Positions 2,282 through 23,284 of a stretch of 33,895 bases of DNA are shown one piece after another. The stretch lies in assembly GCA_029932985.1 (NCBI GenBank), contig JAOZPA010000008.1:1-33895 (forward strand), given 5' to 3'. The stretch is from Campylobacterales bacterium. Its GTDB lineage: Bacteria > Campylobacterota > Campylobacteria > Campylobacterales > JAOZPA01. The notes under the pieces were generated by a model. That model had not been told where the DNA came from. It made no database searches and was given only the letters and a program-made list of their open reading frames with translations. Position numbers and translations under genes: made by a program. Position 1 is the stretch's first letter; every line of letters begins with the position of its first letter.

Positions 2282-2298
2282 AACTTTTTCCTAATTTT

Positions 2299-3810: not shown

Positions 3811-3868
3811 AATTATTCCTTTTTAATATTTTTGACAAATTATATCATTTTGTAGATTTAAAATCAAT

Positions 3869-3900: not shown

Positions 3901-3916
3901 TAATCCTTTTTATTTA

Positions 3917-6361
3917 TCATTCGCCGAGGAGTTTTAAGATTCGTTTAAATTTTTTCTTTTTAGCAAAATCTACAACACTCATACCATTTTCATCTTTAAT
4001 TTTATAAAGCAACTCTTTTTTAGCTCCATTTTTGAGCAAAATCTCCACACTTGCCACATCGTTACGACCAACTGCGATATGCAAAGGTGTCATTTTTTGC
4101 CCATTGACCGTTCCAATAGCATTTACATCTGCCCCGTGTTCAATCAAAGCTTTCAATTCTTCAATTTTTTTTCGTTTAATATAACCTAAAAGTTGAGGCA
4201 GATTAGCGGTACTAAATCCTCTAGTGGAATCAGCTTTGATAATAGGTCGGTCGAGAAAAAGTCGATTTTGAGAAAGTTTTTTTTGGTTTAAAAGCCCTAT
4301 TATAAGGGGAAATTTATAGTTTCGTGAACTTATATTGACATTCACATCTGCCCCTTTTGCAATCAGATAACGAAACATATTTTGATTTTTGTACAAAATC
4401 GCATTTGCCAACGGATTATATTTACCTCTTTTGGTATCATCATTTAAGTTCGCACCATTTTCAATCAAAAGTTTAGCTACATCATTTTGGTTTTGAATCA
4501 CCGCCAAAGTTAAAAGTGGCACTCTTTTTTTGTAATGAATCCCGATATCCGCCCGATTATTTATCAGAAACAGTGCAACCTCTTCACTTTTATTATCAAT
4601 CGCTACAACTAAAGGGGTGTTATAATATCGATTTTGTTTGTTAATATTCAATTTATGAGAGAGCAAAAGTTTCAAAATCTCAATTCTTACCTTGGGATGA
4701 TGACCACTTTTTGCCAGAAGATGAAGCAATCCATTTCCAAACATATCTTCAGTTTTAACATCCATCTTTTGATTTATCAAATATTTCACCCCCTTCATAT
4801 TCAAACTACTCACCGCCTCATAGAGTGGAGTTCTGCCATATTTTGCCTTTTTATCGAGCTTCAAAAGTTTTTGCTTATGCAAATAATCCACAATCTCCAA
4901 ACCATTTTTTTTACAATGAGGACTTGACAAAAAAAGATGAGCAGGAGCAAACCAATCCATATCCAGATTTCCCTTAAAACTCCTATCGACCCTCATCCCC
5001 TTATCCACCAGCAATTTTATCTTATCCAGCGAACACTCTTTTTTATTGACCACCAAATCATATAAAATATGGTTATCCCCCTCAAAAGCTACTGTTTTCA
5101 GATTGTACTTATATGAATGCAAAAAATTTTCCAACTCCTCTAGCTTTTTGTCAAGATAATTAAAAATCTCATCCTTTTTCAAATCCGTCGCAATCCAATC
5201 CTCATTAAATCGAATCGCCCAAATATCATACCGCCCCTTTCCATAACTATCAGTATTTCCAACCAGCAGATAATCGCCCCGCTTCGTCACCACAATATCA
5301 CTCGCCACATCATCTTTCTCGCCACCCATCGTCTGCGACCAAATCTCCTCACCATCTTTATCAAGTTTCAAAATTTTCAAATCAGCATTAAAACCCTTAG
5401 TTTTCCCAATCAATATCAAAGTTTCATTTGCCAATTGTGTAATTTTGCTAAAATCCCCTCTCAAAACCCTCTGCCACATCTTTTCACCGTGACGATTAAA
5501 TTTGGTCATATAGGTGTTAAAAATCTGATTTCTAAAAATATTTTTTGAACCAATCGAGATAAAACCATCATCTTTCGTCAAAACCAGCCCACCAGCAATC
5601 TCATCGGTACTTTTTTTCCAAATAATTTTGCCTTTTTTGTTTAATTTTATCAGTAAAAGTTCAGGCTCACCCCTTGCACTTTTTTGCATACTTCCTGCAA
5701 AAACATAATTTCCACCCTTTGTCGTGATAATAGTTTGTGAAAAATCATCAAACACCCCACCAATAAATTTACTCCAAACTTTTTTACCCCTAGAGTTTAT
5801 CTTTAAAATCCAAATATCATATTCACCACTTCCATAGCTATTGGTAACTCCAGCAATCACGAATCCGCCATCTTTGGAGTTGGTTATCGATTTTGGGTAA
5901 TCATTCCCCTCACCGCCAAAACTCTTTTCCCAAATTTTTCTACCAGCTGAGTTAGTTTTTATCACAAATATATCATTATTATCTACATTTTTCTTTTTGT
6001 GAGATTTTTTACCCACAATAATAAAATTTCCGTTGGGGGTCACAATCAAAGATGTAACATATTTTAGCGACCTACTTTTTAACACTTTTTGCCAAATAAT
6101 TTTTTTATTTATATCCATTTTTATTAGTAAAATATTTGAGGATTTAATGCCAGTTACTCCATAAATCGAACGATTCCCTGCGATAATAAATTTTTTATCT
6201 TTTGTTTGTTTTACCGAAAATGAAAATTCATCATTTTTGCCCCCGAAAGTTTTTGTCCAAAATTTTGGCTTTAGATTATCAATACTTGCATAGCTATTTT
6301 GTACAAAAGATATTAGGATAATAAAAAATAGATTTTTCATAAGTATCACTACTTTACTCAT
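3917..6361 (-). CDS. Secreted beta-propeller and ankyrin fusion protein
   Basis: An 814-aa protein. A signal peptide occupies about residues 1-27 (hydrophobic run ending NSYAS). Residues about 33-395 hold seven repeats of roughly 50 aa, each with a W-x-K/Q...GG...D start, a DGGF-x-I-x-G centre and a DIW-x-x-K end, for example FWTKTFGG, IWEKSFGG and IWSQTMGG. This suggests a seven-bladed propeller. Residues about 400-814 are ankyrin repeats (TPLYEAVSSLNMKGVKYL, TPLVVAIDNKSEEVALFL, TPLHIAVGRNDVASVEILL). The ATG at 6361 is supported by an AAGGAGT SD; a second Met, seven codons in, is less likely. The ankyrin half is paralogous to 1247-2281. It probably acts as an exported scaffold; the ligand is unknown. 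Confidence 0.85.
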   Translation of the reverse strand: MSKVVILMKNLFFIILISFVQNSYASIDNLKPKFWTKTFGGKNDEFSFSVKQTKDKKFIIAGNRSIYGVTGIKSSNILLIKMDINKKIIWQKVLKSRSLKYVTSLIVTPNGNFIIVGKKSHKKKNVDNNDIFVIKTNSAGRKIWEKSFGGEGNDYPKSITNSKDGGFVIAGVTNSYGSGEYDIWILKINSRGKKVWSKFIGGVFDDFSQTIITTKGGNYVFAGSMQKSARGEPELLLIKLNKKGKIIWKKSTDEIAGGLVLTKDDGFISIGSKNIFRNQIFNTYMTKFNRHGEKMWQRVLRGDFSKITQLANETLILIGKTKGFNADLKILKLDKDGEEIWSQTMGGEKDDVASDIVVTKRGDYLLVGNTDSYGKGRYDIWAIRFNEDWIATDLKKDEIFNYLDKKLEELENFLHSYKYNLKTVAFEGDNHILYDLVVNKKECSLDKIKLLVDKGMRVDRSFKGNLDMDWFAPAHLFLSSPHCKKNGLEIVDYLHKQKLLKLDKKAKYGRTPLYEAVSSLNMKGVKYLINQKMDVKTEDMFGNGLLHLLAKSGHHPKVRIEILKLLLSHKLNINKQNRYYNTPLVVAIDNKSEEVALFLINNRADIGIHYKKRVPLLTLAVIQNQNDVAKLLIENGANLNDDTKRGKYNPLANAILYKNQNMFRYLIAKGADVNVNISSRNYKFPLIIGLLNQKKLSQNRLFLDRPIIKADSTRGFSTANLPQLLGYIKRKKIEELKALIEHGADVNAIGTVNGQKMTPLHIAVGRNDVASVEILLKNGAKKELLYKIKDENGMSVVDFAKKKKFKRILKLLGE

Positions 6362-7527: not shown

Positions 7528-8853
7528 ATGAATTTGACACCTAAACAGATAGTAAAATATTTAGATGAATATATAATTGGGCAACATAATGCCAAAAAAT
7601 CGATAGCGGTGGCTTTGCGAAATCGTTTTAGAAGACTACAACTTGATGAGGCGATGCAAGATGAGATAATGCCAAAAAATATTTTGATGATTGGCTCAAC
7701 TGGTGTGGGAAAAACTGAGATTGCTCGACGAATGGCTAAATTTATGAGCATTCCGTTTGTGAAAGTTGAGGCTAGTAAATATACAGAAGTTGGGTTTGTG
7801 GGGCGAGATGTGGAATCAATGGTTCGAGATTTAGTGACTGCATCTATAAATTTGGTTAGAAAAGAGTATCAAGAAAATATGGAGGAGCAGATAGAGAAAT
7901 ATGTGGAGAAAAAAATCATAGAAAAACTTTTACCACCTCTTCCAAAGGGTGCGACGGAGACCAAAAAATCTGATTATCACCGAAGTTTTAACCGAATGAG
8001 AAATAGATTGCGAGATGGAGAGCTTGATGAACTTGATATTGAAATTGATATGCCAAATAGCAGAATTGAGCTTTTAGATAGTGGAAATATGCCTCCTGAG
8101 ATGTTAAAAATGCAAGAGAGTGTTATTAAAATTTTTGGCTCAAGCAAAGAGGATATTAAAAAAGAGGTGAAGGTTAAAGAGGCTCAAGATATTCTGAAAA
8201 TTGAGGCTAGTGAAAAACTTTTAGATATGGATGCGGTGAAGATTGAGGCTTTGAAAAGAGCGGAAAATGGTGGAATTATCTTTATTGATGAGATTGATAA
8301 AGTGGCGGTGAGTGAAAAATCTAGCCGACAAGACCCAAGCAAAGAGGGAGTTCAGCGAGATTTATTGCCAATTGTTGAGGGTTCAAATGTTTCAACTAAA
8401 CACGGAATCATCAAAACTGACCATATTCTTTTTATCGCTGCAGGGGCTTTTCATGTAAGCAAACCTAGCGATTTGATTCCTGAACTTCAAGGGCGATTTC
8501 CTTTGCGAGTTGAGCTAAATTCTCTTGATGAAAATGCTCTTTATCAAATTTTAACAACCACCAAAAATTCACTTTTGGTTCAATATCAAGCTTTGCTAGG
8601 TACGGAAGATGTTGAATTAGTATTTACTGATGAGGCGATTAAAGCATTGGCTAAAATCTCATATCTGACAAATGAAAAAACTGAAGATATTGGAGCTAGA
8701 CGATTGCACACAGTAATTGAAAAAGTGCTAGAAGATATAAATTTTGATGCAGATGAACATGCAGGTGAAACGATTACAGTTGATGAAAAATTAGTTCACC
8801 ATAAATTAGATGATATTGCAGAAGATGAGGATAATGCTAGATATATTCTCTAA
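7528..8853 (+). CDS. hslU: ATP-dependent protease ATPase subunit HslU
   Basis: A 441-aa AAA+ unfoldase. Walker A is GSTGVGKT (residues 56-63, with the unusual Ser-Thr) and Walker B is IIFIDEID (D254, E255). The I-domain inserted between them (about residues 110-230) is acidic and helical. Sensor and arginine-finger region text includes FIAAGAF, ELQGRFPLRVEL and GARRLHTVIEKVLED. The C-terminal tail RYIL matches the conserved R-F/Y-I-L tail that docks into HslV and activates it. Hexamers feed unfolded substrates into HslV. In relatives era often follows hslU; here an accessory operon starts 24 nt downstream. Confidence 0.97.
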   Translation: MNLTPKQIVKYLDEYIIGQHNAKKSIAVALRNRFRRLQLDEAMQDEIMPKNILMIGSTGVGKTEIARRMAKFMSIPFVKVEASKYTEVGFVGRDVESMVRDLVTASINLVRKEYQENMEEQIEKYVEKKIIEKLLPPLPKGATETKKSDYHRSFNRMRNRLRDGELDELDIEIDMPNSRIELLDSGNMPPEMLKMQESVIKIFGSSKEDIKKEVKVKEAQDILKIEASEKLLDMDAVKIEALKRAENGGIIFIDEIDKVAVSEKSSRQDPSKEGVQRDLLPIVEGSNVSTKHGIIKTDHILFIAAGAFHVSKPSDLIPELQGRFPLRVELNSLDENALYQILTTTKNSLLVQYQALLGTEDVELVFTDEAIKALAKISYLTNEKTEDIGARRLHTVIEKVLEDINFDADEHAGETITVDEKLVHHKLDDIAEDEDNARYIL

Positions 8854-8877: not shown

Positions 8878-9471
8878 ATGTCTGATAAAACAATAAATTT
8901 TTATGAAAAAAATCATAAAATGTTAATAAAAAGATATAATAGGGCAAAATTAGAAAAGTTACACCTATTATTTAGAAAAAATATCAAACAAAATGATAAA
9001 ATTTTGGATATAGGTTTTGGGAGTGGAAGAGATTTGAGATATATCCACTCTCTTAGAACAGATTGCTATGGAGCGGAAAGTTGTAATAGTTTTCTGAATA
9101 TTTTAGGCAAAGATAAAATTTTTAAGAATAAGCTTTTTTGTGCTAAGCTACCAAATATAGATTTGCCTATTGATTTTCAATTTAATACTATTATTTTGAT
9201 TGCAGTTATTATGCACCTTTCATTAGAGGATATAGAAAAATCTATTATTGAAATTAAAAAATATCTAAAAGATGATGGGATTATTATAATCAGCTATTCT
9301 ACTACTAAAAGAGAGAATGATGAAAGATTTTTTGAAAATTTAAATGAAAAAATTGTGAATAGTATTTTTTTAAAAAATAGTTTTTATAAGATAGAGACTA
9401 TAAAAACTTATGATGGAATGCAAAGAAAAATTGAATGGATTACAACAATTTATAAGGTTAAAAAAGTATGA
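8878..9471 (+). CDS. Class I SAM-dependent methyltransferase
   Basis: A 197-aa Rossmann-fold methyltransferase. Motif I is ILDIGFGSGRD (about residues 42-52), followed by the acidic end of strand 2 at CYGAES. The post-motif region is FNTIILIAVIMHLSLEDI, and a strand-6/7 end KKYLKDDGIIIISYS follows, as in Methyltransf_11/25 type enzymes. It has no target-recognition domain and no DPPY or N6-adenine motif, so a small molecule, protein or modified base is more likely than a classical restriction-modification substrate. SD AGAGAG precedes the ATG, 24 nt after hslU. Its last four bases overlap the next ORF (ATGA). It is the first gene of the accessory operon. Confidence 0.8.
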   Translation: MSDKTINFYEKNHKMLIKRYNRAKLEKLHLLFRKNIKQNDKILDIGFGSGRDLRYIHSLRTDCYGAESCNSFLNILGKDKIFKNKLFCAKLPNIDLPIDFQFNTIILIAVIMHLSLEDIEKSIIEIKKYLKDDGIIIISYSTTKRENDERFFENLNEKIVNSIFLKNSFYKIETIKTYDGMQRKIEWITTIYKVKKV

Positions 9472-10298
9472 ATAAATTAAAAGTATCATTTTCTGGACAT
9501 GATAAATTTGAATGCAAAGTTGATTGGATTACAAAAGGAATTGACACTTTTATGCAAGATAATAATATTTTTTCCAATATAGACAAAAGTATAGAGACTT
9601 TAGGGCTTGGCAAAAATATGATAAAATCATTAAGATATTGGCTTAACAGTTTGAATATTATGAATAATGGTAAAATGACAATATTTGGTCAAATTCTATA
9701 TGAAAAAGACTTATATTTGGAAAATAGCAATAGTATATGGATTTTACATTGGAATTTAGTTAAAAATATGCAGAATTCAACTCTCTATTATTTGCTTTTT
9801 AATAAATTTTATTTTAATAGTTTTACAAAAAATGAATTAGTTTTTGGAATTCAAAAATGGTTAGAATATAACAACATTAAAAGATTTACAGAAAAAACTT
9901 TAATTTCTGATTGTGAAGTATTAATTAGATTATATACAAGTGAAATGGGATTACTTAGAGAATTAAATTTATTTAATAATTCAAATAGAATTTATAATTT
10001 AAATATTACAAATCGAAGTGAAATTAGTGATGAGCTATTTTTATTTATAATTCTTGACTATATTGATATTTTTTATGAAAAGAATATTAGCACTCTTTCT
10101 ATTAGCGATTTACAGCAAGGGAAAATCAGTATTCAAAAATCTTTGCTTATGAGTGAAAATAGTTTTTACAATAAAATTCATATATTATCTAAATTAACAA
10201 ATGGTGATATAAAATATCAAGAATCATTAGGAATAAGAGAACTTTATATAAAAAATTTGCCTAATAAATTTGATATTTTAAAGAAAATATATGATTAA
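9468..10298 (+). CDS. DUF4007 family protein
   Basis: A 276-aa protein. The N-terminal FSGHDKFECKVDWITKGI (residues 8-25) and GLGKNMIKSLRYWLNSLNI (about 46-64) match the DUF4007 pattern FSGHxxFxxRxxWxxKG and GVGKNMVxxIRYW that I know from genes beside PAPS-reductase/DndC-like genes. The GKNM segment looks like a DNA-binding winged helix rather than a P-loop. The C-terminal half is helical with no further motif. The family has no established biochemical role known to me; DNA binding or sensing is a guess. It overlaps the methyltransferase gene by 4 nt and is 8 nt from the next gene. Confidence 0.8.
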   Translation: MNKLKVSFSGHDKFECKVDWITKGIDTFMQDNNIFSNIDKSIETLGLGKNMIKSLRYWLNSLNIMNNGKMTIFGQILYEKDLYLENSNSIWILHWNLVKNMQNSTLYYLLFNKFYFNSFTKNELVFGIQKWLEYNNIKRFTEKTLISDCEVLIRLYTSEMGLLRELNLFNNSNRIYNLNITNRSEISDELFLFIILDYIDIFYEKNISTLSISDLQQGKISIQKSLLMSENSFYNKIHILSKLTNGDIKYQESLGIRELYIKNLPNKFDILKKIYD

Positions 10299-10306
10299 GG
10301 TTAGAA

Positions 10307-13300
10307 ATGTATAGATATAAAGATAATATTATTTTAAATAAAAATTTCAATAAATCAACGAATATAATTTATGACAAAGCAAACTGTGAAAATTATATAT
10401 TAACAACATCATCAAAAAATATTTTAAAAGTTTTTTTCGATGAGGGTAGCGAAAACTCAATAGCTATAATTGGTTCATTTGGTTGTGGAAAATCCTCTTT
10501 TTTATTGTATCTTAATTCTATTTTATCAAATAATTCTAAATGTGTAGATAAATTAAAAAATACTGATTTAGAATTATATGAAAATTACAAAAAACATACC
10601 TCACGAAATTATTTTCATTTGAAAATTGTAGGAGAATCTATATCTTTTAAAGCAAAATTAAAAAATGAAATTTTAAATTTTACTAATTTAGAAAATTCTT
10701 GTGATTATTTAAATCAAAATAGTAACTACCAACTAACTACATTATTAAAAAAAATTGATTTAGATATTGAAAAAAGTAATTTTGATAGCTTTTTATTTAG
10801 TATCGATGAATTTGGTAAATTTATTGATTTCGCATTAGAAAATAGTAATGATAGTGAGATTTTTGATTTGCAAACTATCGCAGAATTTGTGAATAAAAAA
10901 AATAATTATAAACTTATAGTTGCACTTCATAAAAACTTTAAATCATATTTAAATACAACATCTACGGTTAATTATAGTGATTGGGAAAAGATTCAAGGAA
11001 GATTTGAACATATAATTTTTCAAGATGATTTTTATGAAATGCTGAATATATTTAAAAATAGTATAGATTGCAAAAATACTTCTATTATAGAAGAGGGCAA
11101 AACACTAATATCCAATATTTGCAATAGCTTTACTCAAAATAGAAATATGTCATATTCAATAGAAAGTTTTAAAGAGTTAGTACCCCTTCACCCATTTTCC
11201 ATATTAGTGATTTCAGATTTATTCACAAAATATTTTCAAAATCAAAGGTCAATTTATTCATTTCTTTTTTCCAAAGAGCCATTTGCATTTAGTGAATTTA
11301 TTAATTATGAATATAATCAAACAAGATTATATAATTTAACTATTCTTTATGATTATATAACTTATCTTTTAAAAATCTATAATATTCATCTGCCAGACTC
11401 TGAAGCTTGGTATCTATCGATTCAAAATATAAAAAATAGTAGTTTTTCTAATATAGAGATAGATTTGATTAAAACTATAAGTTTAATAGACAGTTTTAAA
11501 TTGAATTATTTGATTAAAATAAATAAGAACAATTTAATACTTTCATTAAATAGTATATATAACTCAAAGGAAATAGAGTTAACTCTTAATTCTCTTATAA
11601 AAAAAGATATTTTAATTTTAAAAAATAAATCTGATGAATATTCGTTGATTGCAGAATCAAACATCAATATTAATAGAGAATTTATAGATGAATTATCTAG
11701 TTTAGGTAAAATTGATTTAGATAAAAAAGTAAATGATTTTATTAAGCATAAAAATATTATAGCTAAAAGATTTTTCTCTAAATATGGGAATAATAAAAGT
11801 TTTACAAAAATATATGTAGATAAAAATAAAAATATACTACAGCAAAAATATAAAATCTTTATTTTAAATAGTTTAAATTTTAATAATCTTCTTAAATTAA
11901 GCAAAAATAATCCAAAGTCATTATTTATAAATATAGATAATTCTGTAAAAATTGAAAATTTTATAAAAAACATAGAGGCTTTAAATGTAATTTTAGATAA
12001 AAAAAATACAATCATAACTTCAAAAACTAGAGAAATAATTGAAAATATGATGAATGATAATATTGTATCTTTAGAAAATCTTTTGAAAAAAGAGATGGGA
12101 CTAAATAAAATATTTCATAATAATAAAAAATATGATTTTAGCTTAAAAAATATACAACAATTAATTAGTGAAATATTTGAAAAACAGTATTCCTTAACTC
12201 CTATTATAAATAATTACACATTTATCCATTCCATAGCAAAAGGACACCTCACCTCAATTATTAAAAGATTATTTATCTTTATGTTAGAAAAAAATAATCT
12301 TCAAAGTTTGGGTTTTGAAAGTGATAAATATCCTCCTGAAAAAGCTTTGTATCTCTCTGTAATTAAGCCCTCAGGAATGCACCAAAAAGTTAATAATATC
12401 TGGATTCTAACAAAACCAAAAAATTTAAATTTTGATAAGATATGGGATTTTTTAGAAAAAACTTTAAAAGAAAAAATAGGTGTAGATAAATTAATAGAGA
12501 AATTATCAAATGAACCTTTTGGTTTAAATGCTCAAAGTTCCCTATTTTTCATTTCATTATTTATCATAACAAATCATTCATTTGTATCTATTTTTAGAGA
12601 TAATACATATAAATACCAGCTAGATATAGATTTAATTATGAATATGTTTAAAGCTTATAAAAAATATGAATTACAATATATTAAATTAAACAAAAAAGAG
12701 CAAGAGATTTTTAAAATATATTTGACCATTATAAATGATATTTCAAATACAACATATTCAAAAGGTAATATTCAAAAAATAATCAAAACTCTCTATCTTA
12801 ATTTTGACAAATTACCAGAATATGCAAAAAATAGTCAAAATTTATCTCAAAAAGCTAAAAATTTAAGAAGTGCTTTATTATCAGCAAAAGAACCCTATCA
12901 AACTTTTTTCACTCTTTTTCCAAAAGCATTAGGATATGATAATATTGAACAAATTAATAAAGATAAATTTATAAAAGAGTTTAAAAATAGTTTTAATGAA
13001 ATTGTACTTTCCTATAAATTATTAATTTCAGATTTAGAAAATTATATAGCTAAAGCTTTTTTATTAGAACACACCTCTTTTCCTTATGGTAGTGAATCAA
13101 TTAATTTATCAGATAAATTTTTGAAAATGCCTTTAGATAGAGAAGAGAGAGCTTTTATTCAAAATTTCAAATATTCCAATAGCTTGATAGAATTTATAGA
13201 TACTACATCTGTAATATTTAATAATAAAAAAATTACTCAAAGTTATGATAATGAAATTATAATTTTAAAAGAAAAAATCTCAAATTGTGCGGATAAACTA

Positions 13301-13540
13301 TTATCAAAACTAGACATTTTACAACTTAGCTCAAAAAATACTATAAAGACAAGAGTTATCGTAACAAAAAAAGATAAAATAATTAATAAGATAGTCTCAA
13401 TAGATAAAAAAAGAGCAGATATTCTAAATTTAAATTTAATAGAGTTAAAAAAGTTACTATTAACACAGAATTTGTCAAAAAATGAAAAATTATATATTAT
13501 CTCTCAACTATTTGAGGAGGAGGCAGAACTTGAAAAATAA
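10307..13540 (+). CDS. Large P-loop ATPase (BrxC/PglY-like)
   Basis: A 1077-aa protein. Walker A is IIGSFGCGKSS (residues 54-64) and Walker B is SFLFSIDEFGKF (161-172), with the Asp-Glu pair at 167-168. Around residues 290-325 it carries PLHPFSILVISDLF and YFQNQRSIYSFLF, a pattern (LHP... QN-x-RS-x-x-x-FL) I associate with the large ATPases of BREX-type (BrxC/PglY) and DUF4007-linked clusters. The remaining 750 residues are helical, Lys/Asn-rich and unrecognised. It is probably the motor or scaffold of the system. Codon use is extremely AT-rich. The 3' end overlaps the next gene, whose TTG start is preceded by AGGAGG inside this coding region. Confidence 0.8.
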   Translation: MYRYKDNIILNKNFNKSTNIIYDKANCENYILTTSSKNILKVFFDEGSENSIAIIGSFGCGKSSFLLYLNSILSNNSKCVDKLKNTDLELYENYKKHTSRNYFHLKIVGESISFKAKLKNEILNFTNLENSCDYLNQNSNYQLTTLLKKIDLDIEKSNFDSFLFSIDEFGKFIDFALENSNDSEIFDLQTIAEFVNKKNNYKLIVALHKNFKSYLNTTSTVNYSDWEKIQGRFEHIIFQDDFYEMLNIFKNSIDCKNTSIIEEGKTLISNICNSFTQNRNMSYSIESFKELVPLHPFSILVISDLFTKYFQNQRSIYSFLFSKEPFAFSEFINYEYNQTRLYNLTILYDYITYLLKIYNIHLPDSEAWYLSIQNIKNSSFSNIEIDLIKTISLIDSFKLNYLIKINKNNLILSLNSIYNSKEIELTLNSLIKKDILILKNKSDEYSLIAESNININREFIDELSSLGKIDLDKKVNDFIKHKNIIAKRFFSKYGNNKSFTKIYVDKNKNILQQKYKIFILNSLNFNNLLKLSKNNPKSLFINIDNSVKIENFIKNIEALNVILDKKNTIITSKTREIIENMMNDNIVSLENLLKKEMGLNKIFHNNKKYDFSLKNIQQLISEIFEKQYSLTPIINNYTFIHSIAKGHLTSIIKRLFIFMLEKNNLQSLGFESDKYPPEKALYLSVIKPSGMHQKVNNIWILTKPKNLNFDKIWDFLEKTLKEKIGVDKLIEKLSNEPFGLNAQSSLFFISLFIITNHSFVSIFRDNTYKYQLDIDLIMNMFKAYKKYELQYIKLNKKEQEIFKIYLTIINDISNTTYSKGNIQKIIKTLYLNFDKLPEYAKNSQNLSQKAKNLRSALLSAKEPYQTFFTLFPKALGYDNIEQINKDKFIKEFKNSFNEIVLSYKLLISDLENYIAKAFLLEHTSFPYGSESINLSDKFLKMPLDREERAFIQNFKYSNSLIEFIDTTSVIFNNKKITQSYDNEIIILKEKISNCADKLLSKLDILQLSSKNTIKTRVIVTKKDKIINKIVSIDKKRADILNLNLIELKKLLLTQNLSKNEKLYIISQLFEEEAELEK

Positions 13541-14387
13541 GGAGTTGCACATTATTTCAGTTTCAGGTGGAAAAGATAGTGCTGCATTAGTAATCTATTT
13601 GAAACAAAAATATCCAAATAGAAAATTTGAATATATTTTTTTTGATACAGGTGAAGAGTTAGAAGATACTTATAATTATTTAAACAAATTAGAAAGCAAT
13701 TTAGGTATAAAAATACAATATATTAAACCTAAAAAATCATTTATAGAATTTTTGCATGACCATAATGATTATCTCCCCTCACCGCAAAAAAGATGGTGTA
13801 CTATAAAAATGAAAATAGAGACATTTTTTGAATTTATGCAAAGATATAAAGATAAGCAAATCTATAATTATGTAGGAATCAGAGCAGATGAAGATAGAGA
13901 GGGTTTAGTGCCAACAAAGGAAAATATAATTACAATCATGCCCTTTAAAGAGGATGGTATAAATTTAAATGATGTAAAAAGAATTTTACATGATGCAGGG
14001 GTAGGATTACCTGCTTATTATGATGTTATTTACGATGAAAAGTATAATATAGAGTATTTTAGAAGCCGTTCAGGTTGCTATTTTTGTTTCTTTATGAGAC
14101 AAATAGAGTGGGTTTGGCTACTAGAAAAACATCCAGATAAATTTCAAAAAGCGATGGAGTTTGAAAAAATAGGCTATTCGTGGATACAAGGAATGAGTTT
14201 AAAAGAGTTAAGCAAACCTCATACAGTAAAAAAAATAAAAGAATCTTATAAAAGATATGAAGAGATGAAAAAAAAACGACAGATAAAAAATGGAACAATG
14301 TTTGGAGAGATGGAGTTTTTGTCAAAACACGATAAAATGATTGACGAAGTTGAAAAAGATGAATTTTGTATAATGTGTATATTATAA
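13530..14387 (+). CDS. PAPS reductase / DndC-like adenylating sulfurtransferase-type protein
   Basis: A PP-loop ATP pyrophosphatase with motif IISVSGGKDSAALVIYL near its N-terminus and FEYIFFDTGEELEDTYNYL next, as in PAPS reductases, DndC and SspD. The text QKRWCTIKMKI and a CYFC pair followed by RQIEWVWLLE provide conserved Cys residues. DndC uses such cysteines for an Fe-S cluster; a second CIMC sits at the very C-terminus. I choose TTG at 13530 because AGGAGG ends 6 nt before it; an in-frame ATG at 13482 has no SD. The length is then 285 aa. The family activates a substrate as an adenylate and transfers sulfur; in Dnd this makes DNA phosphorothioate. Whether DNA is the substrate here is unknown. 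Confidence 0.85.
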   Translation: MKNKELHIISVSGGKDSAALVIYLKQKYPNRKFEYIFFDTGEELEDTYNYLNKLESNLGIKIQYIKPKKSFIEFLHDHNDYLPSPQKRWCTIKMKIETFFEFMQRYKDKQIYNYVGIRADEDREGLVPTKENIITIMPFKEDGINLNDVKRILHDAGVGLPAYYDVIYDEKYNIEYFRSRSGCYFCFFMRQIEWVWLLEKHPDKFQKAMEFEKIGYSWIQGMSLKELSKPHTVKKIKESYKRYEEMKKKRQIKNGTMFGEMEFLSKHDKMIDEVEKDEFCIMCIL

Positions 14388-14401
14388 AATAAGGATAATT
14401 T

Positions 14402-15679
14402 GTGGCGAATTTAGAATTGAAAATATTATCAAAAAGAGAAGAAAAACATAACAATAAAATAAGTACTTGCTATATGTGCAAAGGAACTTTAGAAGATTAT
14501 GTTCGATCAATTCCAGATAGATATAGAGAATACGATATTCAAAGAGGTATTATTAAAAATAATGTTTATTTGGAAAGACTTACTAATACTATTTTAGAAA
14601 AACAGTATATACCTTCTATAGTATTAGTTGCTGATAATGATAGTTTATCAAAAAATAATGAGTCTTTAATAGTTAAAGACTATAAAATCTTAGATGGTTT
14701 ACAAAGAAGTTATAGAATTAAGTTAATTTATAATGCATATAATTTATATCTTAAAGAAATTCAAGATAATAAAAAAAATGAGATTGAAAGTAAAACGAAA
14801 TTTAGATTATCAAGAGAATTAAAGAATGAATTAGTGGAAAGAGAAACAACAATATCTTATTTATGGACTATTATAGAGTTTTATAGAAATAAAAATGTAG
14901 ATATAAATATTTTTAAAAACTTTATACAATGGTTTGAGGTATGGGATAATTTAGATAAAAATGAACAAATTAATAAAATGTTGCTTTTAAATGCTGGGCA
15001 TAAATCTATGGATTTAAAACATCAATTAGAATTATTGTTTTTAAATATAATTTCTAATACCTATTTAAATGATTTTATTCGTTCAAAAGATATAAATGCA
15101 ACTTACTTTTATAAAAATAAAGAAAAAGGACAATTACATCTTACTCATATAATATCATCTTTAATAGCTTTTGATAAATGTGAACCTATTTTATTAAATC
15201 AAAAATATTTACAAGAATTGCATGAAAATATTGATATAGAGCTAGAACAAGCTAAAATTTTTTTTATGGAAGATAATTTAGAAAAATTTATAAAGTTTTT
15301 CAAAGATTTAGATAAAATTATAGAAGAAAAATATGGAAAAGATGGGTTAGAATGGCTAGGAAGAGAATCAGTATTAATTGGTATGTTTTCTTCTTTTGGA
15401 AAATATTTTCAGTATAAATATAATAAAGATATAAGTCAACTAAATAACTGTTTTTCTGATATATTATCAAAGTTAAGAGAAAACATTGATAATATAAATA
15501 TCAATGAATTTAATGATGCAAAAACTAGTATAAATATAGCTAAAGTAAATATTGGAGATTTATTTAAATATTCAATATATTACTATTTTTGTAAATTACT
15601 CATAAGTAACCAAATAAATAAAAGTTGGAAAACGATTTTTAAAATATCTAAAAGTGAGATAAAAAATGAGTGTAATTGA
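14402..15679 (+). CDS. DGQHR/DndB-like protein
   Basis: A 425-aa protein starting at GTG with an AAGGAT SD. The segment YREYDIQRGIIKNNVY (about residues 41-56) and YKILDGLQRSYRIKLIY (94-110) resemble the N-terminal fold of DndB/DGQHR proteins, whose hallmark is D-G-Q-H-R. Here the motif is D-G-L-Q-R-S (98-103), between DGQHR and the DGQQR of DUF262/ParB-like proteins. DndB represses dnd genes and limits modification. The later text AGHKSMDLKHQLELLFLNI and the helical C-terminus are unassigned. It overlaps the next gene by 14 nt. An alternative reading is a DUF262-like nucleotide-binding protein. Family confidence is moderate. Confidence 0.6.
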   Translation: MANLELKILSKREEKHNNKISTCYMCKGTLEDYVRSIPDRYREYDIQRGIIKNNVYLERLTNTILEKQYIPSIVLVADNDSLSKNNESLIVKDYKILDGLQRSYRIKLIYNAYNLYLKEIQDNKKNEIESKTKFRLSRELKNELVERETTISYLWTIIEFYRNKNVDINIFKNFIQWFEVWDNLDKNEQINKMLLLNAGHKSMDLKHQLELLFLNIISNTYLNDFIRSKDINATYFYKNKEKGQLHLTHIISSLIAFDKCEPILLNQKYLQELHENIDIELEQAKIFFMEDNLEKFIKFFKDLDKIIEEKYGKDGLEWLGRESVLIGMFSSFGKYFQYKYNKDISQLNNCFSDILSKLRENIDNININEFNDAKTSINIAKVNIGDLFKYSIYYYFCKLLISNQINKSWKTIFKISKSEIKNECN

Positions 15680-16811
15680 AGATTTAAGAAATAAAATAGA
15701 TAGATATTTTGAACAACAATCTCAAGAAATTCAAGACAGCTTTGACAATATAGAAACTATTAAAGAACAAATAGATTTTAAAGTTTATCTTGCTAAAAAA
15801 ATTCTTGATAAAGGTATTGAAATTGATAATGAAACAATAGTATTTAACTACATATCAAAAGAAGAATATACATTATCCATTAATACAAATATAAAGTTAT
15901 CATATAAAAATAATCCTTTTTTGATTGTTGATACAAATGATTTTAATTTAGAAAATTTTTATGATGAAGAAAATAAATATTACGCTTCTTTATTATTAGC
16001 ACTGAATCAGAATTGGAATAATTTAAATAATCAATTATGGTTTTTCATTCCATATTGTCAAGTAGATGAAAAGAATTTAGAGTCATTTGTTCAATTTATA
16101 TTATTAATTAATGGAAAAACCTTCCATAGTCCTATTGAAACAACAGAAAATCAATTTCTTATAAACGATGTAAAGAATATTCTAGAGTGTAATATTAAAA
16201 ATTTTAATCAATATCAAGAGAGTGCATATATTCTTAGTGAATACAATCATACTAAAGATATTTTACTTAAGTATTTACTGCTTTATCACATAATAGAGAA
16301 TTTCATGTATCGAAGACCTATTGCAGAAATGGTAAATACAAAATTTACTATTCGAGATTTCAAAAACTTGTATAAAAAAGTAGATTTAACGGAAGAAAAA
16401 ACATTAAAAGAACTTTTAACAAAAATTAAAACTGAAAATATTATTCCTTCACAAACATTAGAAGCTTATTTTGATAATAATCTTCTTAATTATAAAAATT
16501 TATTAACTAGTCAAGATAAAATAAATCAAATTTTTACAAAAATGACTCTATCAAATATCAATGGATTAAACTACAGTAATTCCTCTAAACTTATTTACTA
16601 TTTTAGAAATTCAATTATTCATAATAAAGAAACCGAGTTTCATATTACACATACAACTTTAAATAGTTCATCAGATTTAGTTACTTTTTTTGAAAATTTT
16701 TTATTGCCAATCCTAGAAAATATAATCTATTTTCTTATTTTTAAAGAAAATTCAATTATTGATTATCCTAAAAATCATATTTTATTATATGGAGAAGACT
16801 GTGCAACTTAA
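15666..16811 (+). CDS. HEPN-like protein
   Basis: A 381-aa helical protein. Near the C-terminus the text YYFRNSIIHNKETEF contains R314-x4-H319, the R-x(4-6)-H motif of HEPN ribonucleases, followed by a hydrophobic helix (FFENFLLPILENIIYFLIF) as in HEPN bundles. Upstream text IENFMYRRPIAEMV fits the first HEPN helices. The N-terminal 200 residues, including LNNQLWFFIPYCQVD, are unrecognised. It overlaps both neighbours (14 nt and 11 nt). HEPN proteins are common toxic effectors in defence systems, so this and the GHKL ATPase could be the effector pair; that is inference. Confidence 0.6.
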   Translation: MSVIEDLRNKIDRYFEQQSQEIQDSFDNIETIKEQIDFKVYLAKKILDKGIEIDNETIVFNYISKEEYTLSINTNIKLSYKNNPFLIVDTNDFNLENFYDEENKYYASLLLALNQNWNNLNNQLWFFIPYCQVDEKNLESFVQFILLINGKTFHSPIETTENQFLINDVKNILECNIKNFNQYQESAYILSEYNHTKDILLKYLLLYHIIENFMYRRPIAEMVNTKFTIRDFKNLYKKVDLTEEKTLKELLTKIKTENIIPSQTLEAYFDNNLLNYKNLLTSQDKINQIFTKMTLSNINGLNYSNSSKLIYYFRNSIIHNKETEFHITHTTLNSSSDLVTFFENFLLPILENIIYFLIFKENSIIDYPKNHILLYGEDCAT

Positions 16812-19221
16812 AGAATTATTTTTACAACTATATCAAGCTAAAAATGAAACAGAACTACAAAAAATAATAGATTTCAGTTTACTATTTCAAAATCAGAATA
16901 ATTGGTATCCACTAGGAGGAAATGAAAATAACTTTGGAACTATTGAAAACCAACAAGCCTCTTCTATTGGTGCATTAATTGAAAAACTAACCAATTCTAT
17001 TGATGCAATTTTAATGAGAAAATGTTATGAAAGTGGTATTAATCCAAAATCAAAAAAAGCTCCTAAAACTATGCAAGAAGCAGTTGAAATATTTTATAAA
17101 GATATTTATGATAAATGGAATTTACCATCTTTTGCAAAAGCTCAAGCTCACGAAATACAAATTATAGCAGATGGGACTTTTAAAGATAGAAAAAAAGATA
17201 CTTCTCTAGCTATTTATGATAGTGGAGAAGGGCAACATCCACAAGATTTTGAAAAAACATTTTTATCTATTGGAAAGGGTAATAAGAATGATATTTTGTT
17301 TGTGCAAGGCAAATACAATATGGGTGGAACTGGTTCTATTGTATTTTGTGGAAAAAATCGTTATCAATTAATTGCTTCCAAAAAATATGATAATAGTGGT
17401 AATTTTGGATTTACTCTAATCAGAAAACACCCTTTTACAAAAGAAGATAAAGAGACTAAAAAAAATACTTGGTATGAATATTTTAAAATTGATGAAAAAA
17501 TTCCCTCATTTGAAATTGAAAAATTAAATTTAGGATTACATAGCAGAGAGTTTTCAACAGGTTCAATCATAAAATTATACTCTTATGACTTGCCAACAGG
17601 AGCAAAATCTGTAATTTCTAAAGATTTAAGAGAAAGAGTAGATGAATTTTTATTTGAACCAGCTCTTCCTATTTTGATGGTAGATATAAAAGAGAGATAT
17701 CCAAATGATAGAAACTTACAAAGAGAATCTTTTGGACTCAAAAGAAGGTTAGAAAAAGATAAAAATAAGTATATAGAGGATTATTTTTCCTTAGATTACA
17801 ACAGCCCAAAAACTGGTAAAATGAAAATAACCTCTTATGTCTTTAAAACTAAAATTGAAGATAAAAATGTAAAACAATCTAAAAAAACTATTAAAAATGA
17901 ATTTTTTAGAAGCAATATGTATATTGTTTTTACCCTAAATGGACAAGTTCAAGGGCATTTAACTTCTGAATTTATCACTCGTTCACTCAAATTTCCACTA
18001 CTTAAAGAATATCTATTAGTCCATGTAGATTGTACAAATATGGAGTATGATTTTAGAAGTCAGCTTTTTATGGCTAGTCGTGATAGATTAAAAGAGGGTA
18101 CAGAATATCGGTATTTACGAGAACTATTAACAAAAGAGTTGAAAAAAAGTAAATTAAATACAATTCATAAAAAACGAAAAGATTCTATCTCCATTGACGG
18201 CTCTAATACAGATGAATTAATTAAGTCTTTTACAAAAAATCTTCCGCTCAATAATGAACTATTAAAACTTTTAAATAAAACTTTTGAAATAGATAATGAA
18301 ACTAAAAAGAAAAAGCCACCCAAAAAAAACTCAAATAATAAAAAAGAGGTTGAAGAAAAAGAGTTTATTCCTAAAAGATTTCCATCATTTTTCAAATTAA
18401 AAAACTCAAAAAAAGGAATTAATGCTATAAAAATTCCTAAAGGAAGTGAAAAAACTATCCAATTTGAGACAGATGTAGAAAATCACTACTTTGATAGAGA
18501 TGAAGATAATGGAGAGTTAGAAATTTCAATTGTTGATATAGGTAATAATGAAACAGAGGGTGGAGATAAAAAGGGAGAACCAAAAGGCATTAGTAATATT
18601 TTTGAAATATCCAAATCAAGCCCAGAAAATGGTACGATAAAAATTTCTCTAAATCCAACAGATGAATTAAAAATAGGTGATGAAGTTCAAATAAAAGTAG
18701 AACTATCATCCCCTAACGGAAATTTTGAAGAGATGATTTGGATAGAGATAAATGAACCTCAAAAAGATACTATAAAGAAAAAAGAGATTGAAGATAATGA
18801 AAAAATAGCTCTTCCAGAGTTAATTTTAACATCTCAAAATCCAACTGATGATAAAATAATCTCTTGGGAAAAAATGAATGATATTACTACAATAGATTAT
18901 GAAAATATATTATATATTCTCCAAGATGAAGAAAAAATTGAAAAAATTTATATAAATTTAGATAGCACTGTGCTAAAAAATCATAAATCAAAATTGAAAA
19001 GTAATGAAAAAAGAGAGATAGCAGAAAAAGAATATATAGCAAAAATCTATTTTCATACCCTATTTTTATACTCCATAACTCAAAATAGCAAATATAAAAT
19101 TTTTCAAGAAAATGATGAAGAGTTAGAAATTAATGAATATTTACAAAATATATTTAAAAACGAATATACCTCTTTTTTAATAAATTTCAATACAAATAAT
19201 CTCATTGATGACTTACTGTAA
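16801..19221 (+). CDS. GHKL (Hsp90/MutL-like) ATPase protein
   Basis: A large protein of 806 aa from GTG at 16801 (GGAG ends 6 nt before it); in-frame ATGs at 16789 and 16759 lack a better SD. The Bergerat ATP-binding fold is clear: N-box IEKLTNSIDAIL (residues 60-71), G1 box IYDSGEGQHP (138-147) and G2 box GKYNMGGTGS (170-179). A transducer-like region follows (MYIVFTLNGQVQGHL, VDCTNMEYDFRSQLFMASRDR). A Lys-rich linker (PPKKNSNNKKEVEEKE) leads to a beta-rich Ig-like segment (about residues 590-690) and a helical tail. GHKL ATPases act as ATP-gated clamps in Hsp90, MutL, gyrase and MORC. It is the last gene of the operon. Confidence 0.85.
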   Translation: MQLKELFLQLYQAKNETELQKIIDFSLLFQNQNNWYPLGGNENNFGTIENQQASSIGALIEKLTNSIDAILMRKCYESGINPKSKKAPKTMQEAVEIFYKDIYDKWNLPSFAKAQAHEIQIIADGTFKDRKKDTSLAIYDSGEGQHPQDFEKTFLSIGKGNKNDILFVQGKYNMGGTGSIVFCGKNRYQLIASKKYDNSGNFGFTLIRKHPFTKEDKETKKNTWYEYFKIDEKIPSFEIEKLNLGLHSREFSTGSIIKLYSYDLPTGAKSVISKDLRERVDEFLFEPALPILMVDIKERYPNDRNLQRESFGLKRRLEKDKNKYIEDYFSLDYNSPKTGKMKITSYVFKTKIEDKNVKQSKKTIKNEFFRSNMYIVFTLNGQVQGHLTSEFITRSLKFPLLKEYLLVHVDCTNMEYDFRSQLFMASRDRLKEGTEYRYLRELLTKELKKSKLNTIHKKRKDSISIDGSNTDELIKSFTKNLPLNNELLKLLNKTFEIDNETKKKKPPKKNSNNKKEVEEKEFIPKRFPSFFKLKNSKKGINAIKIPKGSEKTIQFETDVENHYFDRDEDNGELEISIVDIGNNETEGGDKKGEPKGISNIFEISKSSPENGTIKISLNPTDELKIGDEVQIKVELSSPNGNFEEMIWIEINEPQKDTIKKKEIEDNEKIALPELILTSQNPTDDKIISWEKMNDITTIDYENILYILQDEEKIEKIYINLDSTVLKNHKSKLKSNEKREIAEKEYIAKIYFHTLFLYSITQNSKYKIFQENDEELEINEYLQNIFKNEYTSFLINFNTNNLIDDLL

Positions 19222-19302: not shown

Positions 19303-22300
19303 ATGAAAATAGATGAAAAGAAGCAAAAAGCTTTAGATTTAGCCCTAAAACAGATTGAAAAAACTTTCGGTAAGGGGACTTTGGTCAAACTAGGTGATAA
19401 AAACATAGAACCAATTAGTGCTATAAGTACAGGTTCTTTTGGAATTGATAAAGCTTTGGGGATTGGCGGAATTCCACGAGGGCGAATGATTGAAGTCTAT
19501 GGTCCTGAGAGTAGTGGAAAATGTTTTAGTGAAGATAATTATATTCTCACAGAAGAGGGTTATTTAACAATAAAAGAGCTTTTTGAGGGGGAATATCAAT
19601 CTACTCTTGTAAATACAACTAAAACTATATATTTAGAAAAAGATGCCAAAAAACTTATTAATGAAAATAATGATAATGAAGCTGTAACTGCTCTAACTTA
19701 TAATGGCAAGAAAAAAGTTTTTAGAATTACAACCAAAAAGGGTTTTGCCAATGAGGTAACTTTGAATCATCCATTGAGAATTATGGATAAAAATGGTTTT
19801 ATTGTTTGGAAAATGGCTAAAGATATATCATTAGATGATTATTTGGTTTTATCTAAAGATAACTTTTCTAAAAAAAAATCTACTGAGATTAAAATTGATA
19901 TGCACTCCTATATTGCTGGTTTATTTACTGCTGATGGGACAATTAGTGAAAAAAAGATTATGTTTTCAAATGGAGAAAAAGATATATTTGATATGGTTCA
20001 AAATTATTTAGGAATAAATAGCATTGAGTTTAAAAAATATGAAAATCAAAAAGATAGAGTTCCCTCAATTCATATAAATAGAGAAGTTTCTAAAAAGCTT
20101 TTTTTAAAACTTACTGCTTTAAATTTTGGTCTTGCAAAAGATAAAGTGATTCCTAAAAAATATAGAGTTGCTAATGAGGATAAATTGAAAAATTTCATTA
20201 TGGGGTATTTTGATTGTGAATCTCATATAGCAAAGGATTCGATAGAGGTAGTAAGTGCCTCAAAGCAACTTCTTACAGAGGTGCAATTAACTCTTTTATC
20301 TTTTGGAATTGTTAGTGGTATCTCAGAGAAAAGTATTAAAAAATATGCACATAATAACTATTATCGACTTTTTATTTCAGGAAATAATGTAGATATTTAT
20401 ATAAAAACAATAGGAACAAAATCTAAAGTAAAATCCAAACAGATAAAAAAAGCTATATCTTATAAGAAAAATAAAAATGACTTTTCTTATGATATTATTC
20501 CTCATCAAAAACAAAATATCATCTCATTTGTCAAAGATATGCAAAGTGATAGAGATTTACCTGTCGAAGATATAATGTACAAAAAAGATAATGTAGAACT
20601 CTCACAGATGGTTTTAAAAAGATTGCTAAAATATGCAAAAGATAGAAAAAAAGGCAAAACAGCAGAAATTTTTATGGAATATTATCAAGATATTATAGAT
20701 AGAAATCTTTATTTTAGTAAAGTCAAATTTATTGAAGATTTGGGTACAAAACGAACTTTTGATGTTTTTATGCCTAAAACGCACTCATTTATTATGAATG
20801 GAATTATTAATCATAATACAACTTTGACTCTTCACATAATTGCGGAGGCTCAAAAGGAGGGTGGGATTTGTGCATTTATAGATGCAGAACATGCTCTTGA
20901 TGTGATTTATGCCAAAAATTTAGGGGTGGATATTGATAATCTCTTGGTTTCTCAGCCAGATTTTGGTGAACAAGCTTTGGATATTGTGGAAGCGGTGGCA
21001 AGAAGTGGAGCGGTTGATGTAATTGTGATAGATTCGGTGGCGGCTTTGACCCCAAAAGCGGAGATTGAAGCAGATATGAGTGCTAATCATGTGGGACTTC
21101 AAGCTAGACTTATGAGCCAAGCTTTGCGAAAACTCACCGCCGTTACTCACAAGATGAACACTACAATTATATTTATAAATCAACTTAGAATGAAAATTGG
21201 CACAATGGGTTACGGATGTTTTCATTATGATACTTTAGTAAATTTTGCAGATGGTAGGAGTATTCCTATTGGTGAAGTCGTTGATAATAAAATTAATGGA
21301 GATGTTTATACTATTAATGAAAAAAATGATAAAATAGAGAGAAAACCAATTATTGATTGGCACGATAATGGTAAAGTTGCAAATAGTGATGAGTTTGTGC
21401 ATATTCAAACGCAATCGATAGATGGAAAAGGTCGATTTGGTTTTACTTGTACTCAAAATCACAAAATTTTAACAGATAATGGTTGGAAAGAGGCTGGTGA
21501 GCTAAGTTTTAAAGATAAATTAATCTCAAAATATACCAAAACAATTAATGGAACTTATGGAGATTTTTTACGAGGTATTTTAATTGGGGATAGTAGATTA
21601 AATATTAGAGATAAAAATACGGCTAATTTAAAATTTCAAGATAATGAAAATCAAGATTATCTAAATTGGAAACTTGACAAACTCGAAAAATTTTTGGAGT
21701 TTAAAGAGCTTAAAATTAATAGAGGATTTAGATATGATAGTAATTTTAGCTATGAGTTTGCAAAAATAAAAAGAGAATTAGGGGAAAGAAACCCTCTATT
21801 TATGCTTGAAAATTACTCTCCATTAAGTTTAGCTCTTTGGTATATGGATGATGGATATTATGATAACAATAATGGACATAGCAGAACAAATATCTCTATA
21901 AAAAGATTTAAAAATCAAAATATTTTACTTGATAAAATAGTAAAGACATTAAGAGAAAAAACATCAATAGATGGGATTTCTATTTTTTATAAAGAGGGAA
22001 ATATTATGTTTACGGTTAAAGCAACTAATAGTTTAGCAAATATTATAGCTCCTTATATTCCAAAGTCAATGCAGTATAAATTACCTGACAAATTTAAAGG
22101 TAGATATATTGACTTTAAGCTAGAAAATTTACCTGAAATTATTACAGATTCTGTTGAGATTAGAGAAATTAGAGAGGCGTCATCTCGTCAAATGAGAAAA
22201 AAAAGAAAATTTGATATATCGGTTAAAGATAATCATAACTATATGGTGGGAGGCTCAAAAAATGGAGTTATTGTCTCAAATAGTCCAGAGACAACCACAG

Positions 22301-22662
22301 GCGGAAATGCACTTAAGTTTTATACCTCTGTTCGGATTGATGTGAGAAAAATTGCAACACTAAAGCAAGGTGATGATATTATTGGTAACAGAGTGAGAGC
22401 CAAAATTGTTAAAAACAAAGTTGCCCCTCCATTTCAACAAGCTTTATTTGATATAATGTATGGCACGGGAATCTCAAAATCGGGTGAATTAATAGATTAT
22501 GCTATAAAATACAATATTATAAATCAAAGTGGTTCATGGTTTAGCTACGGCGAAATGAAATTAGGACAAGGTAGAGAAAAAGTTAGAGAACTTTTAAAAA
22601 CAGATAAAAAATTAGCTTTAGAGATAGAGAAAAAAATTAAAATAGAGATTAAAGGAGCTTGA
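19303..22662 (+). CDS. recA: RecA recombinase precursor with two inteins
   Basis: A 1119-aa precursor. The exteins are residues 1-73, 506-638 and 994-1119; joined they give a 332-aa RecA of near-normal length. Extein text is typical: [26 protein letters not shown], Walker [35 protein letters not shown] (Walker B), [29 protein letters not shown], and a C-terminal [16 protein letters not shown]. Bars mark intein sites. RecA forms filaments on single-stranded DNA for strand exchange and repair. Both inserts are in frame, so active RecA requires both splicing reactions. SD ATAAGGA precedes the ATG; I see no LexA box. A TATTAT (19273-19278) is a possible -10. TA genes follow 3 nt downstream. Confidence 0.97.
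19522..20817 (+). mobile_element. RecA intein 1 (Walker A site, LAGLIDADG)
   Basis: A 432-residue intein, RecA precursor residues 74-505. It starts with Cys74 ([20 protein letters not shown], block A). Block B is VTLNHPLR with T153 and H156. Two LAGLIDADG-type helices follow: [12 protein letters not shown] (D211) and [10 protein letters not shown] (D304). It ends [10 protein letters not shown] with His504-Asn505, followed by Thr506 as the +1 nucleophile. All residues of class 1 splicing are present, so both splicing and homing activity look intact. The insertion splits GPESSGK from TTLTLH in the P-loop, a favoured intein site in many ATPases. Confidence 0.95.
21217..22281 (+). mobile_element. 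RecA intein 2 (before [17 protein letters not shown])
   Basis: A 355-residue intein, precursor residues 639-993. It starts with Cys639 ([20 protein letters not shown]). Block B is [13 protein letters not shown] (T717, H720). The endonuclease has [12 protein letters not shown] (D763) and [12 protein letters not shown] (D849/D850), a subtype distinct from intein 1. It ends GVIVSN: Asn993 is present but the penultimate residue is Ser992, not His; the +1 residue is Ser994. The site, between GYG and SPETTTGG, lies at the start of the L2 DNA-binding loop. I believe the M. leprae RecA intein uses this site, from memory. Confidence 0.95.
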
Positions 22663-22665
22663 AAA

Positions 22666-22926
22666 ATGCATAGTGTGACATTAAATATAAGTGATAATGC
22701 TTATAATCATCTGATGTATTTTATATCTCATATAAAAAATGATATTGCAATACTAAAAGATGAAATTATTAAAAAAGATTTAAAAGATATAACTTTATCA
22801 AAAGAAACTAAAAGCTCAAAATCTTTAAGAGGTATTTTTAATAGTTATGCAGATAGTTCCAAAATAATTTTAGAGAATAAAGCTTGGCAAATACACATTA
22901 TGGATAAATTCAAAAAAGATGATTAG
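22666..22926 (+). CDS. VapB-like antitoxin
   Basis: An 86-aa protein directly before, and overlapping by 8 nt, the PIN toxin gene. An N-terminal MHSVTLNISDNAYNHLMYFI could form a ribbon-helix-helix DNA-binding unit. The C-terminal part (SLRGIFNSYADSSKIILENKAW) resembles the toxin-binding tails of small RHH antitoxins. The SD AAAGGAG lies inside the last codons of recA, 3 nt before the recA stop region, so translation may be coupled to recA. Role: neutralise the PIN RNase and autorepress. The family call comes mainly from pairing. Confidence 0.75.
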   Translation: MHSVTLNISDNAYNHLMYFISHIKNDIAILKDEIIKKDLKDITLSKETKSSKSLRGIFNSYADSSKIILENKAWQIHIMDKFKKDD

Positions 22927-23284
22927 AATTGATACGAACTATATTTTAAGATATTTAGTTAATGATAATATCGAGATGGCAGATATTGCGGAAGAGATTA
23001 TAACAAAAAAAAATATTTTTATCTCAAATGAGATATTAGCTGAGGTTATTTATGTATTATTTGGTGTATATAAAATATCAAAACCTCAAATAGCAGATAG
23101 TATTTTAAAATTGATTAATTTTGAAAATATATCAACTCTTGATTACAATATAAATAAAAAAGCATTAGAGATATTTAAAACCAAAAATCTTGATTTTGTT
23201 GATTGTTTATTATGTGCCTATTCAAATCAAGATAAAGTGATTACATTTGATAAAAAACTTAATAAATGTATTAAAGATAGTTGA
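22919..23284 (+). CDS. PIN-domain ribonuclease toxin (VapC-like)
   Basis: A 121-aa PIN domain. Acidic catalytic residues are visible: D5 (MIRIDTNYILRYLV), E42 (ILAEVIYVL), D95 (LDFVDCLLCAYS) and D111 (VITFDKKL). These coordinate Mg for RNA cleavage in VapC toxins. The start ATG overlaps the antitoxin's end (ATGATTAG). Length and layout fit an intact toxin. The pair separates recA from eno, which are adjacent in relatives I know, so it is probably acquired. Confidence 0.9.
   Translation: MIRIDTNYILRYLVNDNIEMADIAEEIITKKNIFISNEILAEVIYVLFGVYKISKPQIADSILKLINFENISTLDYNINKKALEIFKTKNLDFVDCLLCAYSNQDKVITFDKKLNKCIKDS

Follow-up and report, generated by a model that had tools for sequence, protein, structure and literature searches.

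What do seven genes packed one behind the other between hslU and recA do for a Campylobacterales bacterium? The window analysed here, a stretch of 33,895 nucleotides (contig JAOZPA010000008.1 of assembly GCA_029932985.1), carries an operon that an initial annotation proposed as a candidate novel defence or DNA-modification system. We find that it combines SspBCD, the writer of phosphorothioate (PT), with a distant Dazbog pair and with a GHKL ATPase that is a constant partner of SspBCD in one Ssp subtype. With a probability of roughly 0.7, we read the operon as a complete PT-based anti-phage system of an unnamed subtype, in which SspBCD works with a plug-in cassette and a GHKL clamp that would couple PT status to attack. 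Its seven co-oriented open reading frames (ORFs) occupy positions 8878–19221 exactly:

8878–9471, + strand: class I S-adenosylmethionine-dependent methyltransferase of 197 amino acids, an optional accessory (Pfam Methyltransf_23/11)
9468–10298, + strand: SspB, the DUF4007 winged helix-turn-helix DNA-binding subunit of the PT writer (Pfam DUF4007 1.9e-56; PADLOC SspB 1.2e-76)
10307–13540, + strand: SspC, the BrxC/Cdc6-type AAA+ ATPase of the PT writer (PADLOC SspC 1.5e-129, BrxC 6.6e-40)
13530–14387, + strand: SspD, a PP-loop ATP pyrophosphatase for sulfur insertion (PADLOC SspD 2.2e-93; PAPS_reduct 1.5e-13)
14402–15679, + strand: DzbA-like, DUF262/DndB-style DGLQR protein, proposed as the cassette's reader subunit (PADLOC DzbA 2.9e-29)
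15666–16811, + strand: DzbB-like, proposed as the cassette's HEPN effector subunit (PADLOC DzbB 2.7e-9)
16789–19221, + strand: GHKL (Bergerat-fold) ATPase of 810 amino acids with transducer/S5-like, Ig-like and C-terminal domains (weak HATPase_c_3 match)

The earlier domain calls hold throughout: class I methyltransferase, DUF4007, BrxC-like ATPase, PP-loop enzyme, DGLQR protein, Rx4H protein and GHKL. PADLOC matches genes 2–6 with models of two systems, Ssp and Dazbog, and gene 7 with none; NCBIfam has no model matching gene 7 either. A wholly novel seven-gene system is therefore rejected. What survives of the original proposal is that this is a defence operon of the DNA-modification kind and that no one model spans it; its marking machinery is not new, being SspBCD.

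That assignment of genes 2–4 to the PT writer on single-stranded DNA, whose mark in studied systems is 5'-CpsCA-3', is read from sequence matches and motifs. SspB matches the solved SspB structure (PDB 6juf) at 1.1e-7, SspC has a Walker A (GSFGCGKSS) and a Walker B (FLFSIDEF) motif, and SspD carries the SGGKDS P-loop and CxxC pairs. Gene 4, initially called DndC-like, scores only 2e-4 against the PADLOC DndC model, as opposed to its strong SspD match. Its start is probably the TTG at 13530 rather than the ORF-opening ATG at 13482, given the alignment with the homologues in loci L018, L017 and L019 and the GAGGAGGAGG upstream. Because the operon contains neither sspA nor another cysteine desulfurase, we propose that a housekeeping cysteine desulfurase supplies SspBCD, which would then put a sulfur mark on host DNA. 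Elsewhere in the genome, five Aminotran_5 genes score above the family cut-off (the best, C13, at 1.8e-76), and NifS/IscS-type enzymes are expected among them. For SspFGH systems, an arrangement of iscS with sspBCD that lacks sspA has been described and is functional (PMC8092258).

To which of these parts does the GHKL gene belong? A genome scan with the gene-7 alignment, taking one genome per species, gave 273 relatives; in the loci of the best 80 (L017–L096) we called ORFs and scored them with a profile for each of the operon's seven proteins. SspC/SspD lies within 6.5 kb of GHKL in 72 of the 80, and the remaining eight reach the end of their contig 2 kb or less from GHKL. The surveyed loci span Bacteroidota, Pseudomonadota, Poribacteria, Campylobacterota, Ignavibacteriota, Acidobacteriota, Rhodothermota, Gemmatimonadota, Chloroflexota and Planctomycetota. 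GHKL divergence tracks that of SspC plus SspD (Mantel r 0.77, 0 of 2000 permutations), a correlation that still contains shared host ancestry. The initial annotation had coupled GHKL to the HEPN-like protein as an effector pair. This does not hold up: GHKL follows SspBCD, and DzbAB stands beside it in 3 of about 72 distinct GHKL loci.

GHKL and the restriction module SspFGH do not overlap. For comparison we assembled 19 SspBCD loci without GHKL (3 from Campylobacterota, 16 from plasmids): 12 of them have SspF, SspG or SspH, three have a trio of helicase, ATPase and phospholipase D, one has PglZ/BrxL, and three have none of these. Counted alone, SspFGH occurs in 0 of 77 GHKL loci and in 12 of the 19 GHKL-negative ones; a Fisher p of 6e-8 belongs to a count that takes as exceptions the cross-matches of the trio's ATPase model to a second, MzaB-like GHKL. 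The contrast is strong but not unbiased, since the two groups are sampled differently, from plasmids on one side and genomes on the other. Campylobacterota locus L129 has the order SspBCD-DzbAB-SspFGH and the window SspBCD-DzbAB-GHKL, so that the cassette is the same and the last module differs. Mapped onto the SspC tree, the GHKL gene appears or disappears at least 11 times, compared with an average of 17 in shuffles, and GHKL loci of Ensifer and Devosia are nested within a clade of SspFGH loci. The window itself contains no SspF, SspG or SspH; a genome search found no SspF, although the control in that search also gave no match. SspE (DUF262-DUF1524) is likewise absent from the window, and the genome's matches to it span just about 100 N-terminal model positions.

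Two further arrangements came to light beside SspBCD. In L127 (4982–13544), SspBCD is followed by a trio of 540, 382 and 286 amino acids, the second weakly DolB-like; GHKL and SspFGH are both absent, and the trio is perhaps another partner set. In L144, L148 and L154, the trio of helicase, MzaB-like GHKL ATPase and phospholipase D forms a second, different link between GHKL proteins and PT.

While SspBCD and GHKL stay, the killer cassette within the locus exchanges freely. The sets that we could label are a DndB-like protein with a small GIY-YIG-like protein (a label given from sequence alone; Pfam 0.1), DUF262 with a Ser/Thr kinase, DUF262 with SIR2, DzbA with DzbB, a second GHKL (MzaB-like) with GIY-YIG, a histidine-kinase-like pair, canonical SspE and a DolB-like set. 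A labelled set is present in 68 of the 72 tree loci, with nine states in all, and the GHKL tree of these 68 requires at least 31 cassette changes, compared with an average of 45 and a minimum of 40 in shuffles. An exchange can be followed at the DNA level between L017 (Sulfurimonas) and L019 (Sulfurospirillum), which are alignable over SspBCD (67.5%) and GHKL (76.9%) and have no similarity over the intervening 2 kb, where L017 holds a DndB pair and L019 DzbAB. Both loci adjoin Tns-type transposon genes and mnmG in a Tn7-like manner. TnsA/B/C/TniQ-like genes lie beside the SspBCD systems of L007, L017, L019 and L128, three of which adjoin mnmG; in these Campylobacterota loci, Ssp defence is carried as Tn7-like cargo.

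The operon is also conserved as a whole. In L018, from an unclassified genome of a marine biofilm, the complete set of seven recurs in unchanged order in a different, defence-island setting; next come a nucleotidyltransferase-like gene and one for a large ATPase, apparently Wadjet JetC-like. Between the two operons, each of the seven genes is under purifying selection, with ratios of nonsynonymous to synonymous substitution (dN/dS) of 0.11–0.42. As to whether homologues occur mostly apart in other genomes, the answer is split: SspBCD and GHKL do not, and DzbAB and the methyltransferase partly do.

Model matches, adjacency and overlap identify genes 5–6 as a distant Dazbog pair. In DzbA, D98, G99, L100, Q101 and R102 are invariant across five homologues; in DzbB, R314, H319 and N320 (Rx4HN) are invariant in homologues 27–80% identical and agree with the HEPN Rx4-6H motif. 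The C-terminal half of the DzbB model is all-helical at low confidence (predicted local distance difference test, pLDDT, 51), and a sequence search of the PDB with profiles of both proteins gave no matches. The DUF262 domain of SspE senses PT, and DzbA may read PT as well; DzbB would be an RNase. The DUF262 protein of Dazbog has been reported to be a likely reader of methylated DNA (PMC10952713). In four loci, DzbAB fills the slot that runs from sspD to GHKL or to sspF, and the reading frames overlap. It occurs alone in a Priestia plasmid and two viral/prophage contigs (L137:6154–8747 and L138:6211–8762); the L138 pair sits between repressor-like and integrase-like genes.

The GHKL protein probably starts at ATG 16789 rather than at the ORF-opening TTG 16759, as its homologues align. 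Its N-box (E-x3-N-x2-DA), DxGxG and GKYNMGG motifs are invariant in 44 homologues. The AlphaFold2 model (pLDDT 79) matches ParE/GyrB, SMCHD1 and Hsp90 modules in Foldseek at 4.5e-8 to 1e-5 and places an Ig-like domain after the ATPase-transducer module; the Ig-like and C-terminal domains have no recognised nuclease motif, and a PDB sequence search with the GHKL profile found no matches. Of the more distant relatives, those in L008, L013 and L014 are solitary, and those in L015 and L009 neighbour a Dcm-type methylase, in L009 together with a nuclease-like gene. In L009 (4900–9965), the relative is accompanied by the Dcm-type cytosine methylase and a 227-amino-acid look-alike of Sau3AI/MutH-type nucleases. 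The family thus partners DNA-modification systems more broadly. We rejected the idea that GHKL is a phage or plasmid passenger: it has 0 matches in phages or IMG/VR, and seven plasmid records.

The mechanism that we envisage starts from DNA marked by SspBCD. DzbA would sense the modification state of DNA and license DzbB, a putative HEPN nuclease, which would arrest the infected cell and so stop the infection. GHKL, an ATPase-transducer of the gyrase/MORC/Hsp90 type, would use ATP to clamp shut on DNA and so link PT status to attack; we infer that this clamp serves restriction, where it probably takes the role of SspFGH. Several observations weigh against this picture. In 43 of 75 loci, GHKL and SspBCD are encoded on opposite strands. 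It is found in about 3 of 67 SspBCD plasmid records and in 2 of 5 Campylobacterota genomes with SspD; because most SspBCD loci lack it, it is a subtype partner and not a universal one. Nor does it replace SspE, since the two co-occur in three loci. With distant relatives alone or next to a Dcm-type methylase, the family as such is not tied to PT chemistry. For the putative HEPN fold of DzbB, neither AlphaFold2 with Foldseek nor Pfam, searched to an E of 10, gave anything usable.

Could the operon instead house two unrelated systems, a PT system of SspBCD and GHKL and an independent Dazbog that reads other modified DNA? PADLOC does treat Dazbog as a separate system and DzbAB has its solitary occurrences, yet the four loci place it exactly in a slot that otherwise holds SspE, DndB- or DUF262-type readers or other recognised sets, and we consider this unlikely. 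That GHKL belongs to the writer, using ATP to clamp DNA and open or position it for SspBCD, which would leave a PT writer plus plug-in cassette and no restriction module of its own, strikes us as a little less likely still. It would fit the constancy of GHKL while cassettes change and a divergence that tracks SspCD. However, SspBCD writes PT without GHKL in the hosts studied (PMC8092258), GHKL comes and goes across the SspC tree without ever co-occurring with SspFGH, and distant relatives accompany unrelated DNA methylases. A mainly epigenetic or regulatory operon, with PT as antioxidant or in gene control, draws on non-defence roles of PT reported in other bacteria. The patchy distribution, Tn7-like cargo and L018 defence-island neighbourhood, together with killer-type cassettes across the family (SIR2, kinase, nuclease types, HEPN), make it highly improbable.

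The methyltransferase stands at the edge of this system. It had been suggested that a methyltransferase beside a sulfur enzyme points to nucleic-acid marking; the sulfur writer is there, as SspBCD, but the methyltransferase has no evident part in marking. It is a class I enzyme of the UbiE/TehB type, lacks the signature of a DNA base methylase and is present in about six surveyed loci. Its PADLOC match (mad2, 4.8e-10) is confined to the methyltransferase region, and a search of plasmids gave no matches at 1e-5. An iterated profile picks it up in L011, L024, L040 and L018, although such iteration may stray into other class I methyltransferases. The stop codon overlaps the SspB start by 4 bp, and the L018 copy, in identical position, has a dN/dS of 0.29 relative to the window copy. 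We regard it as an occasional accessory that may have some role in the system.

As initially described, the operon is AT-rich and tightly packed, which ORF coordinates, GC and GC at third codon positions (GC3) confirm. It begins 24 bp 3' of hslU (7528–8853) and ends 81 bp before recA (19303), its neighbouring genes overlap or are separated by 14 bp or less, and its genes have a GC of 19–27% and a GC3 of 12–23%, versus 33–36% and 22–27% in hslV/hslU/eno. Since era comes after hslU in 12 of 13 related genomes read, the operon lies at a rearranged or inserted site. Elsewhere in the window, recA (19303–22662) is interrupted by two inteins, each with a LAGLIDADG endonuclease domain; a small ORF overlaps a PIN-domain toxin gene between recA and eno (22666–23284), as in a VapBC-like pair; and two ankyrin-repeat proteins (1247–6361) surround a short ORF and an AAA_21/AAA_15 ATPase of the AbiEii/OLD type (2800–3810).

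How does the operon compare with described systems? SspABCD-SspFGH and SspABCD-SspE share SspB, SspC and SspD in the same order and coupling; the window has GHKL and DzbAB in place of SspE or SspFGH, and in addition the methyltransferase. Dazbog agrees in both subunits, which match PADLOC models, are adjacent, overlap and keep their order, but the DzbB match is weak and the pair lies inside a PT operon, whereas catalogues list Dazbog as a pair on its own. MORC/paraMORC proteins of restriction-modification systems (Iyer et al. 2008, PMC2292703) resemble gene 7 in their N-terminal GHKL and S5/transducer domains and in lying beside DNA-modification systems. Gene 7, however, adjoins SspBCD and a cassette and not genes for a superfamily II (SFII) helicase and an endonuclease, has Ig-like and C-terminal domains, and is not placed in any paraMORC family. 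Type 4 BREX has homologous BrxC/SspC, BrxP/SspD and DUF4007 proteins (PMC12839542); we rejected it, as neither PglZ nor BrxL is among the operon's model matches.

A 2025 review distinguishes three PT restriction branches, DndFGH/SspFGH, SspE and PbeABCD (PMC12707154), and GHKL goes unmentioned in papers on the diversity of PT and BREX systems (PMC10853773, PMC12839542). Searches of open-licence papers, bioRxiv excluded, gave no description of a GHKL (MutL/HATPase) partner of Ssp, which may be described elsewhere. In the papers found, the core (SspBCD, DzbAB) is known, and neither the combination nor the GHKL partner appears. We give about even odds to GHKL being a further PT-dependent executor besides SspE, SspFGH/DndFGH and PbeABCD, namely an ATP-gated clamp that replaces SspFGH and works with an exchangeable reading-killer cassette.

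Among 2,678 sspBCD modules in an earlier survey, 7.3% had sspFGH, 7.4% had sspE and 36 had both, which leaves more than 80% without either (PMC8092258). For one sub-branch of the modules that lack a known restriction partner, GHKL is a constant partner, and what orphan PT writers work with becomes a question that can be tested by swaps of cassette and GHKL. Dazbog, previously catalogued on its own, would take its place as a reader inside a PT system. If GHKL is such a further executor, the Dazbog, DndB, DUF262-kinase and DUF262-SIR2 pairs would be interchangeable readers for one PT writer, and such interchangeability would explain many of the sspBCD modules without a known restriction partner.

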